Shown here: piece by piece, positions 4,104 through 23,469 of the stretch
Layout of the letters: the number at the start of each line of letters is the position of its first letter
How positions within the stretch are numbered: position 1 is the first letter of the stretch
Assembly: GCA_913062525.1 (NCBI GenBank)
Contig: CAJXWA010000018.1
Coordinates: forward strand, 1-32,402
Direction of reading: 5' to 3'
Length of the DNA: 32,402 bases
Source of the DNA: an uncultured Alphaproteobacteria bacterium
GTDB lineage: Bacteria > Pseudomonadota > Alphaproteobacteria > Sneathiellales > Sneathiellaceae
Notes under the pieces: model-generated
Told to the model about the DNA's origin: nothing
The model's input: the letters and a program-made list of their open reading frames with translations, nothing else
Databases searched by the model: none
Program-made: the position numbers and the translations under genes

Positions 4104-4604
4104 ATGTCAAAAACCGGCGTACAAATCGGCATAATTATGGGCAGCCAATCAGACTGGCCAATCATGAAACATGCCGCAGATACTTTAGGCGAGCTTGGGG
4201 TCCCGTTTGAAACTAAGATTGTGTCAGCCCATAGAACACCTGACCGCTTGGTTGAATACGCGAAGACGGCTAAAGAACGCGGATTACATGTTATTATTGC
4301 CGGTGCCGGCGGAGCTGCCCATCTACCAGGTATGGCCGCCGCGATGACCCCCGTTCCTGTGCTCGGCGTGCCCATTGAAAGCAAAGCTCTCAAGGGAATG
4401 GATAGCCTCCTTTCAATCGTCCAGATGCCGGGCGGCATTCCTGTTGGGACACTTGCTATCGGAAAAGCTGGCGCCATCAATGCCGCGTTGTTAGCGGCAC
4501 AAATTCTGGGCTTAAACAACCCAAGTACAGCAACCGCAATTGATAAGTGGCGCGACAAACAAACATCTGCCGTGGCAGAAGAGCCAACCGACACACTATT
4601 ATAG
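4104..4604 (+). CDS. purE: 5-(carboxyamino)imidazole ribonucleotide mutase
   Basis: [42 protein letters not shown]...[71 protein letters not shown] placed at 4104, inside ORF 4068..4604. Confidence 0.97.
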
Positions 4605-4614
4605 GATCACCCCC

Positions 4615-5703
4615 ATGACTATGATCGCACCGGGAAGTACAATTGGTATTCTTGGAGACGGGCAGCTTGGCCGAATGATGGCCCTTGCGGCCGCTGAACT
4701 TGGCTATAAAACCCACATTTATGGTCAGGACCCCAATAGTCCAGCCGCACAAGTTAGCACCGCAGTTACTATCGCCCAATATACCGATGAAGAGGCTTTA
4801 CGTAAATTTGCCTCCGCGGTTGACGTTGTTACTCTGGAATTTGAAAACATCCCCACTGAAACTCTTGATTTCTTGGAACCTATTGTCCCTGTTCGGCCTG
4901 GAAAACGGGTTTTAGAAATCACGCAAGACCGTCATCTTGAAAAAAGCTTTCTAAACAGCCTTGGTGCTCCGACGGCCCCTTTTGCAAATGTGGAGAGCCT
5001 TAACGACCTTCGCGATGGTATTGCCAGAATTGGCACACCGGCAATTTTAAAAACAAGGCGGTTCGGATACGACGGTAAAGGTCAGGTCAAAATTAATGCT
5101 GCCACAGAAATTGATGACGCTTGGAAGGAAATTGGGGAACAGCCCGCCATTCTCGAGGGTTTCGTACCGTTTGAGCTAGAGATATCAGTTATTGTTGCCC
5201 GTGGCGTGAATGGCGACATCCAATCTTATCTTCCCGTTGAAAATCGCCATAAAAATCACATTCTGGACATCACACTAGCGCCAGCAGAAATCCTAACTGT
5301 TGTGTCTGATCACGCCGTTGACCTCTCTCATAAGATTGCTGACCATATCGATTTAATTGGTCTGATGGCTGTGGAAATATTTGTCACACCCGAAGGTGAA
5401 GTTCTTGTGAATGAACTGGCGCCACGCCCGCACAATTCTGGTCATTGGACCATTGAAGGATGCACAACAAGTCAGTTCAAACAAAGCATTCGAGCCGCTG
5501 CAGGCTTACCCCTTGCCAGCGCTGAGCGTCACTCAAACGCTGTCATGCGGAACCTAATCGGGGATGATATCGATCATTGGCAAGAGATTTTATCTCATCC
5601 AGATATGAGCCTGCATCTATACGGAAAAGCAGAAGCGCGAGAGGGCCGGAAAATGGGCCATGTTACACGCCTGTTCCCCCTCGGAACGCCGCCAAAAGTT
5701 TAA
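4615..5703 (+). CDS. purK: 5-(carboxyamino)imidazole ribonucleotide synthase
   Basis: [28 protein letters not shown]...[14 protein letters not shown]...[22 protein letters not shown]; 10 bp after purE. ATG at 4615 chosen. Confidence 0.96.
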   Translation: [362 protein letters not shown]

Positions 5704-5705
5704 AC

Positions 5706-6437
5706 CTAGGCCCAGCCACCCGCAAAATACAGGATTTGCCCTGTAATATAGTCGGACTTGTCTGACGCCAAAAATGCCAAATACTCCCCCGCCTCTTCTG
5801 GTTTGCCGAGGCGGCCAAGCGGTATGGGTTTTGTGATTTTCTTCAAAGTCTCTTCATTTTCCAGAAGTTCTTTTGGAAAATATGTAGGGCTCTCAATAAA
5901 ATTCGGGGCAAGCGCGTTTACCTGAATACCTGATTTACCAAGCTCTTTTGCAAGTGTAACCGCAAGCGCATTTGCACCGCCGCGAGCGGCGACATACATG
6001 GAATAGTTTGGCAATCCGTGTTTTGGAACGGCAGAAGAGATAAAAATGATTTTACCTGATCCGCGCTCCTTCATGTGCTTTGCTGTATATTTTGCGTAGG
6101 TAAATCCGCGCACAAGCAAAGCATCCAGCGTATTTTTGAAATCCTCGATACTGGCATCTTCAATAGAAGACCTTATTGCAGGGTATGCATCATTATTAAC
6201 CAACACATCAAGATGGCCGCTAGCGTTTAGAACTGCCGCTAAGACCTCTTCAGGCTCTTGCTCAGCAAGAGGGATAATTCCGGGCACTAAATCTGCGAAT
6301 GCGCTACGAGCGGCCTCTGCAACGAAGGACGCGTCTTGTGCATAGACAGTTGCGCCTTCTCGGAGCAAAACAGAGGCGCCGGGCTTACCAACGAAGTGGG
6401 ATGCGTCGGTTATCAGGATGATTTTATTTTTTAGCAT
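5706..6437 (-). CDS. Short-chain dehydrogenase-fold protein; probable halohydrin dehalogenase family
   Basis: 243 aa SDR fold. TDASHFVG (T-x4-F-x-G) replaces the usual TGxxxGxG. S-AVPKHGLPNYSM-Y-VAA-R gives S-x12-Y-x3-R in place of the usual S-Y-K. Further halohydrin-dehalogenase-like segments: PNFIESPTYFP, IPLGRLGKPEEAGEYLAFLAS, TGQILYFAGGW. Confidence 0.85.
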   Translation of the reverse strand: MLKNKIILITDASHFVGKPGASVLLREGATVYAQDASFVAEAARSAFADLVPGIIPLAEQEPEEVLAAVLNASGHLDVLVNNDAYPAIRSSIEDASIEDFKNTLDALLVRGFTYAKYTAKHMKERGSGKIIFISSAVPKHGLPNYSMYVAARGGANALAVTLAKELGKSGIQVNALAPNFIESPTYFPKELLENEETLKKITKPIPLGRLGKPEEAGEYLAFLASDKSDYITGQILYFAGGWA

Positions 6438-6467
6438 TTTGATCCTGTTCTTTATTTATTGGGTGTG

Positions 6468-7124
6468 TCAGCGGGCTTTCAAATTTCGGAAAAATCGCGC
6501 GGGCGATATAAAGTCTGGAGAAGCCGGTTTTTTGGAAAAAAATTGTTTGGCTTTGTATTTGGCTGTTTCGAATTGCATAACATTTACAATGCGTCGATCA
6601 AGAAACGCCCATGTTTTCTCAAAATCATCTGAACTGTCATCTAACCAGAATAATAGGGTCGATCCATACACAGCAGATAACGTTACGCGTTTGGTATAAT
6701 AGCTAAAGTCTGTAGAAGTGTCGCCGGTTGCGTGCCACATGCGGCTAACGGTACCGGCAGTCAGCTTAAGGCCCTTAGCGGCATTTTGCGGTAACGCCAG
6801 TAATGTAAGAGCATTCCGAATGGATTCTTTATAAGGCGCGTAAATTTCAAGGCGTATCCGCACCGCCAAAGTAATTCGATCGCGAATTTTCATTGATTTG
6901 GCGTTTTCCGCGTCGAGCCGCAATTCCATCTGATCGTCGGCCTGCTCAATGAAATAGGTGACGAGATCAATAGGTCCATTTGGAAAATGCCTATCAAATG
7001 CAAATCGATCTAACTTTAAATCTTCTGCGGCATGCTTAATGGCAAGATTTGACCATCCATCAAACAACACATGCGGTAGCACTGCTTCAAGCAAACGCTC
7101 TTTATCATCAGCTCTGTCAGTCAT
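6468..7124 (-). CDS. COQ9 family protein (ubiquinone biosynthesis)
   Basis: LLEAVLPHVLFDGWSNLAIKHAAEDLKLD...FPNGPIDLVTYFIEQADDQM...RIRLEIYAPYKESIRNALTLLALPQNA...MWHATGDTSTDFSYYTKRVTLSAVYGSTLLFWLDD. Confidence 0.92.
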   Translation of the reverse strand: MTDRADDKERLLEAVLPHVLFDGWSNLAIKHAAEDLKLDRFAFDRHFPNGPIDLVTYFIEQADDQMELRLDAENAKSMKIRDRITLAVRIRLEIYAPYKESIRNALTLLALPQNAAKGLKLTAGTVSRMWHATGDTSTDFSYYTKRVTLSAVYGSTLLFWLDDSSDDFEKTWAFLDRRIVNVMQFETAKYKAKQFFSKKPASPDFISPARFFRNLKAR

Positions 7125-7139
7125 TTCAATTCTCCAACA

Positions 7140-7697
7140 TCATTCTGGTGCGCATTTGTCATCTGTGAACGCCTGTATTTCTGACTCATACACCAAATTT
7201 GTAAGATCATCCATCCGCTCCGGGTACAAAATGCCATCTAAGTGATCAAATTCATGCTGAACAACACGCGCATGAAAACCAACAGCATCCCTCTCAATAA
7301 GCCTCCCTTGTAAGTCCAGCCCTCTATATCGAATATGGGTATGGCGCGGAACAAGTCCTCTCAAGCCCGGAACCGACAAACATCCCTCCCACCCGAGGGC
7401 CGTGTCGTCCCCTATATATTCTATTTCAGGGTTGATCAAAATTGTCTGCGGTATTTCCGATCTGGCGACACCATCTTCTTTTTCCAACCGCTCACCCGGC
7501 ACATTAAATATTATAAGTCTCAGCGGCACTCCGATTTGCGGCGCGGCCAATCCGACCCCTCCCGCAGCCTCCATACTCACTTGCATCACGTCTACGAGTG
7601 TTCGAATCTCATTTGATTGCGGATCCTCAATTAAGGACGCTGTTTCGCGAAGAAGGGGATTTCCCATTTTCAAGATCGATTTCGCTGCTATTTCCAC
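7140..7697 (-). CDS. def: Peptide deformylase
   Basis: GVGLAAPQIG, WEGCLSVPG and QHEFDHLDGILY motifs all present. Confidence 0.97.
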   Translation of the reverse strand: MEIAAKSILKMGNPLLRETASLIEDPQSNEIRTLVDVMQVSMEAAGGVGLAAPQIGVPLRLIIFNVPGERLEKEDGVARSEIPQTILINPEIEYIGDDTALGWEGCLSVPGLRGLVPRHTHIRYRGLDLQGRLIERDAVGFHARVVQHEFDHLDGILYPERMDDLTNLVYESEIQAFTDDKCAPE

Positions 7698-8161: not shown

Positions 8162-9037
8162 ATGGCAAATCTTGAATTGACTGCGAAAGATATCGCAAGC
8201 GACCAACTTGAAGTTCAAACCAGTGATGGGTGGACTTTGAAAGCGAACTGCCATGCGCCTCCGACGGGACAGATAAAGGCAATCATCCTCATCATTCCTG
8301 CGATGGGGTCTCATTCAAGGCCAGCACGATTTATGGCAACTGCTCTCGCCAAGATGGGCAACCTCACTGTCGCGCTCGACCCACGAGGACATGGGCAAAG
8401 CACACCTCACCCAAAACGTGGCGTAGACTTTGGGTTTGATCACATTCTACAATTTGATCTCCCAGCTGTTATTAAATCCCTGCAAGAAAGACATCCAACT
8501 CTTCCCGTGTTTTTAATTGGCCATAGTTTAGGCGGACATCTATCAGCAATATACGCTGCTGAAAACTTAACCGAAATCAAAGGTGTCATAACACTCGCGA
8601 CGGGACATCTTCATTCGAAGATTATTGGCCGGCCTTCTCTTCTTCTATTTTTTGCCTTTGCCCTAATCTCAAAACTACTGGGTTATGTTCCCGGCCAGCA
8701 CTTTGGTTGGGGATCCCCCATCGCCCACAAACAAGTTATGGATTGGGCGAAATGGGGAATTACAGGTATTTTACGGGGAACTGATGGCCGTAATCTGCTG
8801 CCCGCACTCGCGGCATCAAAAACTCCGACAGTGTGCATCGGATTTACTGACGACCTTAGATTGGCACCACCAAAAGCCGTGAGAGCTTTTTCCAATCTCA
8901 TGCCAGCAGATACCACCTCCTACTGGGAAATTAAACCTTCCGACGTTGGAGCCGAAAAACTCGACCACTTTGACCATTTACGAACCGGAGCCAGATTATG
9001 GCCCCGTATAGACGCTTGGATAAATGATCAAATCTAG
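8162..9037 (+). CDS. Alpha/beta fold hydrolase
   Basis: LDPRGHGQS, IGHSLGGHLSA nucleophile elbow, C-terminal EKLDHFDHLR. Confidence 0.85.
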   Translation: MANLELTAKDIASDQLEVQTSDGWTLKANCHAPPTGQIKAIILIIPAMGSHSRPARFMATALAKMGNLTVALDPRGHGQSTPHPKRGVDFGFDHILQFDLPAVIKSLQERHPTLPVFLIGHSLGGHLSAIYAAENLTEIKGVITLATGHLHSKIIGRPSLLLFFAFALISKLLGYVPGQHFGWGSPIAHKQVMDWAKWGITGILRGTDGRNLLPALAASKTPTVCIGFTDDLRLAPPKAVRAFSNLMPADTTSYWEIKPSDVGAEKLDHFDHLRTGARLWPRIDAWINDQI

Positions 9038-19963: not shown

Positions 19964-19998
19964 ATAAAATGTAGAACTGCTTGCTAGGGAGTTATAGA

Positions 19999-22900
19999 AT
20001 GCCACTTTCCAAGGTCTCACTGGACGACAAATACTTGCTGGAAAAAGGTCGGGTTTTCCTTACGGGAATTCAGGCACTCGTTCGCCTACCACTTATGCAA
20101 AAAGCCCGTGATCGGCAGGTAGGCCTAAATACAGCGGGTTTCATATCCGGTTATCGCGGCTCCCCGCTTGGGGGTTATGATCAGGCACTTTGGAAGATAA
20201 AACCGCTCCTCGTCGAAAATGACATCCATTTTGAACCCGGCATCAACGAAGATTTGGCGGCAACAGCAGTTTGGGGCTCACAGCAACTCAATATGTATGA
20301 AGGAGCTAAATACGACGGCGTATTTGGCCTTTGGTATGGTAAAGGGCCCGGCGTAGATAGAACCGGCGATGTTTTTCGCCACGCGAATTCCAATGGCACC
20401 TCTAAATTTGGAGGCGTATTGGCTCTTGCCGGAGATGACCACGGGATCGTTTCGTCAACGGTTGCCCATCAAAGTGAACATGGATTTATGGGTTGGATGA
20501 TGCCTGTCCTTCATCCCTCCAGCGTGCAAGAAGTTCTTGATTATGGTCTAATCGGCATCGCCATGTCTCGTTTTTCAGGGCTTTGGGTTGGCTTTAAATG
20601 CGTATCTGAAACCATTGAAGGCGGCGCATCCGTCTATGTGGACCCAGATCGAGTGCAAATCACATACCCCGATATTAAACTCCCCGAGGGAGGTCTCAAT
20701 ATTCGCGGAAACGACAATCGGTTTGAGCAAGAAGTCCGACTAAACGAGCATAAAATCTATGCTGCCCGCGCCTTTGCCAGAGCAAACAATCTAGATAAAA
20801 TAACCATGGATTCGCCGAAGCGACGCTTTGGTATTGTCTCCACTGGCAAAGCCTATTTGGATGTCAGGCAAGCCCTTCGTGATTTGGGTATCAATGACGA
20901 ACAGGCAGCCGAAATTGGCTTGACCGTATACAAAGTCGGCATGCCTTGGCCACTTGATCCGCAAGGTGTTCGGAACTTTGCTGAAGGGCTTGAAGAAGTT
21001 CTTGTAGTCGAAGAAAAGCGGGCTTTGGTTGAAAACCAGATGAAGGAACAACTTTATAACTGGGACACAGAGGTCCGGCCTCGCATCATCGGTGAATTTG
21101 ATGATGATGGCACGCATATCCTCCCCTCCGCTGGGGAATTAACGCCAGCGCGGGTTGCGCGGGTAATCGCTGAACGGATCCGCCGTTTTCACACATCAGA
21201 ACAAATTGAAAATCGACTAGCGTTCCTTGACCGTAAAGAAAAACAGCTGGATCAATCCCCTGCTAAAATCAGCAGAACGCCTTTCTATTGTTCCGGGTGC
21301 CCCCATAATCGATCCACTGTCGTCCCTGAGGGAAGCCGCGCAGTAGCAGGTATCGGGTGCCACTTCATGGTGACTTGGATGGACCGAAACACCAATGAGT
21401 TCACGCAAATGGGCGGTGAAGGTGTGCCTTGGGTTGGACAACAACATTTCACCAATGAAAAACATATTTTCGCAAATCTAGGCGATGGCACTTATCATCA
21501 TTCAGGCCTGCTTGCCATCAGGCAAGCCATCGCAGCCAAAGCCAACATGACATACAAAATACTGTATAATGACGCGGTCGCAATGACAGGCGGGCAACCC
21601 CTTGGTGATCAACTGACGCCGTGGCAAATTGCACAGCAAGTTGCGGGTGAAGGTGCCGTGGTCATTCAGGTTGTCTCAGATGAGCCCAACAAGTATCCAT
21701 CAAGCATAAACTGGCCCAAAGGGACAACTTTTCATCACCGGGATGATCTTGACGCGGTTCAGAAATCCATGCGTGAGATCAAAGGGGTTTCAATCCTAAT
21801 CTTTGATCAAACTTGCGCCGCAGAAAAGCGCCGCCGCAGAAAAAGAGGATTATTCCCTGATCCTGCAAAACGGGTCATGATTAACGATCTCGTCTGCGAG
21901 GGTTGCGGCGACTGCTCGGTGAAATCCAATTGTATTTCTGTCGAACCGCTGGAAACAGAATTTGGACGGAAACGCGCCATAAACCAGTCCAACTGCAACA
22001 AGGACTTTTCCTGCGTGAACGGATTTTGCCCAAGCTTCGTCACCATCGAAGGCGGCAATCTCCGCAAACCTGAAAAAAGCGCGAAAGATGATCCGGCAGA
22101 AGGCCTGCAGCTCCCAACCCTTAAAAATATCGATCAGCCGTACCGGATTCTGATTACAGGCATTGGCGGTACCGGTGTTGTGACCATTGGTGCCTTGCTC
22201 AGTATGGCGGCCCATATTGAAGGTAAAGGCGTGACGGTTCTTGACCAGGCGGGCCTTGCCCAAAAAGGCGGTGCGGTCACAAGTCATATTCATATTGCCC
22301 CGACGCCTGAAGACATTAACGCTGTTCGCATCCCTGCGGGCCGTGCTGATTTGCTAATTGGCTGCGACATGGTCGTGGCTGGATCGTATGATAGCCTGGC
22401 AAAACTTGATGTGGGCATTGCAAAGGCTGTTGTAAATTCACATCCGGCACCGACAATGGATTTCACCCTTAATCCAGATGCCCCCTTCCCTATCAAAAGC
22501 ACACTGGAGCACATTCAAAGCGCTGTTGGTAAAGAGGATTGCCATCTAATTAATGCGAGCCATATTGCAACAACATTAATGGGCGATTCCATTGCAACAA
22601 ATTTATTCATGCTTGGCTATGCATTCCAGATGGGGTTTGTTCCCATTTCGATGGACGCGCTGATGCAAGCTATCGATCTCAACGGTGTTGCTGTTGAAGG
22701 AAACAAGAAAGCCTTTGCATGGGGCCGCGCAATGGCTGCAGATGCTGATGCCGTCAATGCAGAGGTTGCCAAACTTTCAGGACCAGTAGACGTCGTTGAG
22801 CCATCAGATGACATCAATGAGATAATTGCCAAACGCAAAGCGTTCCTGACCGATTATCAGGATGGCGCCTATGCGAGACGCTATGCAAGCCTAGTTGATC

Positions 22901-23469
22901 GGATCAAAGTTAAGGAAGCGGAAATTAAACCTGGAACGGGTGCCCTATCTAAAGCCGTTGCCAAATCTTTGTTTAAATTCATGGCATATAAAGATGAGTA
23001 TGAAGTTGCCCGCCTTTATGCAGATACTGGCTTCATGGATAAAGTCGATCGGATGATGGAAGGCGACTACCGGGTAAAATACAATCTCGCTCCACCGCTT
23101 TTCGCAAAGAAAGACCCAAACACCGGAGAATTGAAAAAATCCGAATACGGACCTTGGATGACGAAGGTCTTCGAAATCCTCCCCCGGTTTAAATTTTTGA
23201 GGGGAACTGCACTCGATCCATTTGGATATCTTGCTGAACGCAAAGAAGAGCGTCTTATTCTTCAGCAGTTTGAGCAGATCCTATCTCAATTAATTGATAA
23301 CCTTACTGCTGACAATTATGCCGCTGCCGTTGAAATCGCAGAATTGCCCATGAAAGTTCGCGGTTATGGCCACGTGAAAGATAAGGCTATTGAACACTAC
23401 AAACGCGATCTTGAAAACTTGATGGGAGTCTTCAAAAGTCCAGCCCCTCACAAAGAAGCCGCTGAATAA
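19999..23469 (+). CDS. Indolepyruvate ferredoxin oxidoreductase, fused alpha/beta type (1156 aa)
   Basis: TGIQALVRLPLMQKARDRQVGLNTAGFISGYRGSPLGGYD, FYCSGCPHNRST, VCEGCGDCSVKSNC iron-sulfur motif, ILITGIGGTGVVTIGALLSMAAHIEGKGVTVLDQAGLAQKGGAVTSHI. ATG at 19999 chosen over TTG at 19981. Confidence 0.95.
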   Translation: MPLSKVSLDDKYLLEKGRVFLTGIQALVRLPLMQKARDRQVGLNTAGFISGYRGSPLGGYDQALWKIKPLLVENDIHFEPGINEDLAATAVWGSQQLNMYEGAKYDGVFGLWYGKGPGVDRTGDVFRHANSNGTSKFGGVLALAGDDHGIVSSTVAHQSEHGFMGWMMPVLHPSSVQEVLDYGLIGIAMSRFSGLWVGFKCVSETIEGGASVYVDPDRVQITYPDIKLPEGGLNIRGNDNRFEQEVRLNEHKIYAARAFARANNLDKITMDSPKRRFGIVSTGKAYLDVRQALRDLGINDEQAAEIGLTVYKVGMPWPLDPQGVRNFAEGLEEVLVVEEKRALVENQMKEQLYNWDTEVRPRIIGEFDDDGTHILPSAGELTPARVARVIAERIRRFHTSEQIENRLAFLDRKEKQLDQSPAKISRTPFYCSGCPHNRSTVVPEGSRAVAGIGCHFMVTWMDRNTNEFTQMGGEGVPWVGQQHFTNEKHIFANLGDGTYHHSGLLAIRQAIAAKANMTYKILYNDAVAMTGGQPLGDQLTPWQIAQQVAGEGAVVIQVVSDEPNKYPSSINWPKGTTFHHRDDLDAVQKSMREIKGVSILIFDQTCAAEKRRRRKRGLFPDPAKRVMINDLVCEGCGDCSVKSNCISVEPLETEFGRKRAINQSNCNKDFSCVNGFCPSFVTIEGGNLRKPEKSAKDDPAEGLQLPTLKNIDQPYRILITGIGGTGVVTIGALLSMAAHIEGKGVTVLDQAGLAQKGGAVTSHIHIAPTPEDINAVRIPAGRADLLIGCDMVVAGSYDSLAKLDVGIAKAVVNSHPAPTMDFTLNPDAPFPIKSTLEHIQSAVGKEDCHLINASHIATTLMGDSIATNLFMLGYAFQMGFVPISMDALMQAIDLNGVAVEGNKKAFAWGRAMAADADAVNAEVAKLSGPVDVVEPSDDINEIIAKRKAFLTDYQDGAYARRYASLVDRIKVKEAEIKPGTGALSKAVAKSLFKFMAYKDEYEVARLYADTGFMDKVDRMMEGDYRVKYNLAPPLFAKKDPNTGELKKSEYGPWMTKVFEILPRFKFLRGTALDPFGYLAERKEERLILQQFEQILSQLIDNLTADNYAAAVEIAELPMKVRGYGHVKDKAIEHYKRDLENLMGVFKSPAPHKEAAE

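Follow-up and report, generated by a model that had tools for sequence, protein, structure and literature searches.

Halohydrin dehalogenases (HHDHs) convert halogenated alcohols to epoxides and also run the reverse reaction, and members of the family are in use as biocatalysts. Two motifs, T-X4-F/Y-X-G and S-X12-Y-X3-R, define HHDHs and are used to sort them from SDRs (PMC4989007, PMC11976700). The reaction mechanism followed in this work is the one established for HheC (PMC4989007). Just two known HHDH genes share an operon with an epoxide hydrolase, and in a 2016 review the natural role of the family was stated to be open, other physiological functions being possible (PMC4989007).

The window, i.e. 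the whole stretch of 32,402 nucleotides analysed here, comes from an uncultured alphaproteobacterium of the Sneathiellaceae, and its genome is a Sneathiella. Judging from its sequence, its place in a phylogenetic tree and a structural model, the product of one minus-strand gene in the window is very probably a cofactor-free HHDH with an SDR fold, its chemistry being predicted by homology with HheC.

The locus and its predicted active site

The features of the locus are the following:

4540..5703, plus strand: purK, convergent neighbour of the HHDH gene (domain match; adjoins the HHDH gene in the examined Sneathiella loci)
5706..6437, minus strand: predicted HHDH gene, 243 residues (ORF, PDB matches, tree and model)
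5871..5906, minus strand: residues 178-189, PNFIESPTYFPK, loop aligned with HheC Pro175-Asn176-Tyr177-Leu178 ... Phe186 (alignment)
5982..6035, minus strand: motif 2, residues 135-152, SAVPKHGLPNYSMYVAAR, with the predicted catalytic Ser135-Tyr148-Arg152 (alignment)
6387..6410, minus strand: motif 1, TDASHFVG, residues 10-17, halide/nucleophile loop replacing the TGxxxGxG nucleotide loop of SDRs
6438..6451, minus strand: likely ribosome-binding site, AGGA ahead of the ATG, in the 30-base gap between the COQ9-domain and HHDH genes
6468..7124, minus strand: COQ9-domain gene, directly upstream of the HHDH gene on the same strand (ORF and domain match)
7140..7697, minus strand: peptide deformylase gene (def), same strand as the HHDH gene (ORF and domain match)

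The HHDH ORF runs from an ATG at 6437 to a stop codon at 5706-5708, and the plus strand is stop-rich over the same interval. An earlier note, made from the letters of the window, had given these bounds exactly; the strand is the minus strand. The HHDH gene begins 30 bases past the COQ9-domain gene, and its stop lies only two bases from that of the convergent purK. The genes def, coq9 and HHDH possibly form one transcription unit. Elsewhere in the window, positions 19981-23469 of the plus strand encode a large protein (POR-domain/DUF6537) that also has a TPP domain and resembles indolepyruvate ferredoxin oxidoreductase; it is an ordinary neighbour.

Both signatures that the earlier note had read in the protein are present and agree with the published definition of HHDHs (PMC4989007, PMC11976700), as T10-DASH-F15-V-G17 and S135-x12-Y148-x3-R152. 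All of the stretches it quoted (TDASHFVG, SAVPKHGLPNYSMYVAAR, DASFVAEAARSAF, PLAEQEPEEVL, PNFIESPTYFP and IPLGRLGKPEEAGEYLAFLAS) were likewise located in the translation. When the protein was shuffled 20,000 times, both motifs, with motif 1 within the first 35 residues, arose together twice; their co-occurrence is therefore unlikely to be due to chance. None of the SDR paralogs retrieved from the same genome carries both motifs; in the alignment these have Gly at the motif-1 aromatic position and Lys at the position of the Arg. The classical SDR signature, TGxxxGxG plus YxxxK, is absent from the window protein, whose cofactor site departs from that of SDRs at four points in the alignment: Asp11 and Phe15 take the place of two TGxxxGxG glycines, NNAG has become NNDA, and Lys has become Arg.

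In the alignment to HheC, T10/F15/G17 correspond to T7/F12/G14, D83 to D80, S135/Y148/R152 to S132/Y145/R149, P178-N179-F180-I181 to P175-N176-Y177-L178, and Y186 to F186. The HheC loop is the halide-site loop of that enzyme, and the predicted pocket residues of the window protein align with the HheC pocket residues at the level of sequence. By homology with HheC, Ser135 would position the substrate hydroxyl, and Tyr148, its pKa lowered by Arg152, would take the hydroxyl proton. The substrate oxygen would then attack the adjacent halogen-bearing carbon to give the epoxide, and the halide would leave into a putative pocket, sited where an SDR binds NAD(P)H and formed by the motif-1 residue Phe15 together with the Pro178-Asn179-Phe180-Ile181...Tyr186 loop. 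In the reverse direction, halide, azide, cyanide or a similar anion would open epoxides.

Distribution and physiological setting

The closest named relatives are Sneathiella, with 76% identity in Sneathiella glossodoripedis; an alphaproteobacterial MAG has 89%. Orthologs were found in 22 of 25 Sneathiella genomes, counting the window's own; a clear ortholog is absent from the other three, including G008, which is rated 98% complete. The intact Sneathiella orthologs (more than 20, with 63-89% identity to the window protein) include those of the named isolates S. glossodoripedis, S. chinensis and S. litorea, so that a single genus supplies this number of intact members of a biocatalyst family. 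purK neighbours the HHDH gene in 17 Sneathiella-type loci, with an insertion between the two in one locus (L022). By upstream neighbour, Sneathiella falls into two parts, one with COQ9 and one with a sulfate permease. The gene is under purifying selection (pN/pS 0.09-0.26). Saturation at synonymous sites precludes a dN/dS estimate between the window gene and its relatives, and the value of about 0.04 comes from the only two pairs that are close enough, both unsaturated.

In a sample of the class, 42 of 385 Alphaproteobacteria genomes have a match at E <= 1e-34, and in a sample of the phylum 2 of 399 genomes do, both of them Alphaproteobacteria. The description of such enzymes as rare in the earlier note is thus overstated, the family being fairly common in this class. 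Neighbours vary by family (purK/COQ9/def, sulfate permease, XdhC/MobA-like, Sir2, alpha-amylase and spermidine synthase) and none is halogen-specific, which led us to reject a haloorganic-degradation operon common to the families. Across Sneathiella the HHDH gene is a stable, inherited chromosomal gene rather than an add-on for pollutant degradation.

What the enzyme does in the cell is a separate matter from its family. It is possible, if doubtful, that the HHDH, with its triad intact, works in reverse, a natural anion (chloride, nitrite, cyanide or thiocyanate) opening an endogenous or environmental epoxide for detoxification, with dehalogenation only a back or side reaction. The vertical retention of the gene on the chromosome in 22 of 25 genomes and its stable housekeeping neighbourhood are in keeping with such a role, for which the review leaves room (PMC4989007). 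Also in its favour, an epoxide hydrolase of the EHN or LEH type was found in none of six Sneathiella genomes, although alpha/beta-hydrolase types lacking an EHN domain may be present there. On the other side, a type II haloacid dehalogenase (TIGR01428) scores above cut-off in all six genomes tested, which fits haloorganic use and hints at haloorganic metabolism in Sneathiella. The match is at G000:C216:519-1106, with others in five further Sneathiella genomes. Four of these six genomes contain tryptophan-halogenase-type genes; the window's own genome (about 85% complete) is not among them. Overall, the enzyme content of the six genomes fits either haloorganic use or epoxide/anion chemistry.

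No recognised epoxide hydrolase was found beside the Sneathiella HHDH gene; a Microbacterium J1-1 plasmid (L110) has an HHDH gene in an operon arrangement with an epoxide hydrolase. The alpha/beta hydrolase at 8162-9037 of the window is an unlikely partner: it is encoded on the opposite strand, lies near the HHDH gene in only two other Sneathiella loci, and has the nucleophile motif Gly-His-Ser-Leu-Gly of a serine hydrolase. In epoxide hydrolases of the alpha/beta fold the nucleophile is Asp. Because the HHDH gene keeps its place on the chromosome throughout Sneathiella, a genus that has cultured members, the question of natural role can be tested by gene removal.

Divergent relatives and separation from reductases

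Some relatives in other genomes have lost catalytic residues. Tandem HHDH-like pairs occur in three genomes of one alphaproteobacterial family:

L094: 4998-5726 and 5750-6475
L095: 4995-5720 and 5760-6485
L096: 4998-5726 and 5742-6470

In each pair one copy keeps S-x12-Y-x3-R, and the other has S-x12-Y-x3-Q and has lost the motif-1 aromatic residue; the two could be a catalytic and a non-catalytic copy. In three proteins that stand near the HheA branch (L100 4998-5726, L101 4968-5723 and L102 4956-5732), the catalytic Tyr is replaced by Ala or Pro, while T-x4-Y-x-G, Ser and Arg are retained. These may be inactive or have other chemistry, and motif filters overlook them. Motif 1 has Trp in place of Phe/Tyr (T-x4-W-x-G) in one family (L050, L056 and L057) and Ser in place of Thr in L072, variants that strict motif mining would skip. 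Losses of Tyr or Arg among relatives raise the question of whether the window protein is itself a catalytically silent pseudoenzyme, which we consider very unlikely, as Ser, Tyr, Arg and the motif-1 aromatic residue are intact in it and none of the full-length Sneathiella orthologs retrieved departs from either motif.

Pfam matches of the window protein are to adh_short and adh_short_C2 only, and the best NCBIfam matches are all SDR models, far below their own cut-offs. It is therefore plausible, as the earlier note had anticipated, that automated annotation would give the name "SDR family oxidoreductase". A phmmer search against all PDB chains gave a different result, the best ten matches all being HHDH or dehalogenase entries with 227 to 144 bits (6a41 227; HheC group 165-171; HheA group 144-152), and the best reductase, FabG 4nbu, reaching 116 bits. 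An AlphaFold2 monomer model built from a 50-row alignment (A1) has a pLDDT of 94.8. Foldseek with this model returned HHDHs as the first 13 matches (6a41 with TM 0.96 and rmsd 1.5; HheC with TM 0.92-0.93; HheA with TM 0.92) ahead of the first reductase, again FabG 4nbu (TM 0.87, rmsd 2.4).

Phylogenetic trees were built from about 60 homologs from whole genomes, reference HHDH chains from the PDB (6a41, HheC, HheA/HheA2, HheB and HheD2) and SDRs taken from the window's own genome and from related ones. HHDHs stand apart from SDRs at 100/100 support in the first maximum likelihood tree, and at 100/99 once the SDR set is widened to 27 members, the 16 nearest that were found now being included. 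With the motif columns removed, the split holds in an earlier sequence set (99% SH-aLRT). An AU test with Sneathiella and all SDRs on one side did not reject that split (p 0.26); as it also fits a Sneathiella group basal to all other HHDHs, as opposed to inside the SDRs, a sharper test was done, in which forcing the Sneathiella clade together with its nearest SDRs was rejected (p-AU 2e-35 and 3e-6). Since the basal placement is retained at p 0.26, any exact position within HHDHs is tentative.

An ordinary NAD(P)H-dependent oxidoreductase of the SDR family (e.g. FabG-like) with drifted motifs would share the fold, the adh_short matches and the similarity to FabG 4nbu, and is nonetheless scarcely credible given the lost nucleotide loop, the Lys to Arg change, the trees and AU tests, and the HHDHs at the head of the structure matches. 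The reading of the protein as an HHDH made in the earlier note is thus borne out by sequence, tree and predicted structure, that is by each of the homology, phylogeny and modelling checks it had proposed. A point against it is that identity to the biochemically proven HheC and HheA is only 37-41%.

Comparison with characterised HHDHs

The window protein groups on the side of HheA, HheC and 6a41, outside HheB and HheD2, deeper order being weakly supported. Its nearest counterpart of known structure is PDB 6a41 ("Dehalogenation enzyme", released 2019), with which it shares both motifs, its length and 45% identity end to end. This protein comes from another alphaproteobacterial family and shares 98% identity with L069 (genome G379); a literature search found no open paper on its activity and none on a Sneathiella HHDH. 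With HheC of Agrobacterium radiobacter AD1 (PDB 1pwx, 41% identity) it shares the triad, motif 1, Asp80 and the Pro-Asn-aromatic halide loop, but it stops at GGWA, without the C-terminal extension bearing Trp249 that is described for HheC (PMC4989007). HheA/HheA2 (PDB 4z9f and 1zmo, 37% identity) also lack this extension and have the triad, motif 1 and the PNF...PTYFP loop in common with the window protein, which however lies outside the HheA branch (98/98); subtype A is thereby excluded, within the weakly supported deeper order. HheB and HheD2 (PDB 4zd6 and 7b73, the latter being HheD2; PMC9629495) have the same two motifs but only 27-32% identity, form their own branch (100/99) and have Gln-His-Trp or Gln-Asn-Phe in place of the Pro-Asn-Phe of the window protein. 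Subtype D had been considered, on a seeming resemblance of 6a41 to D types, and was rejected for the window protein because HheD2 groups with HheB.

Tentatively, Sneathiella and related Alphaproteobacteria may employ in their metabolism a vertically inherited, near-core HHDH with an undiscovered physiological substrate, in a lineage outside subtypes A, B, C and D. Compared with the systems described so far, it is well supported that this is a new protein in an already known HHDH family, in a setting that is unusually stable and vertically inherited.
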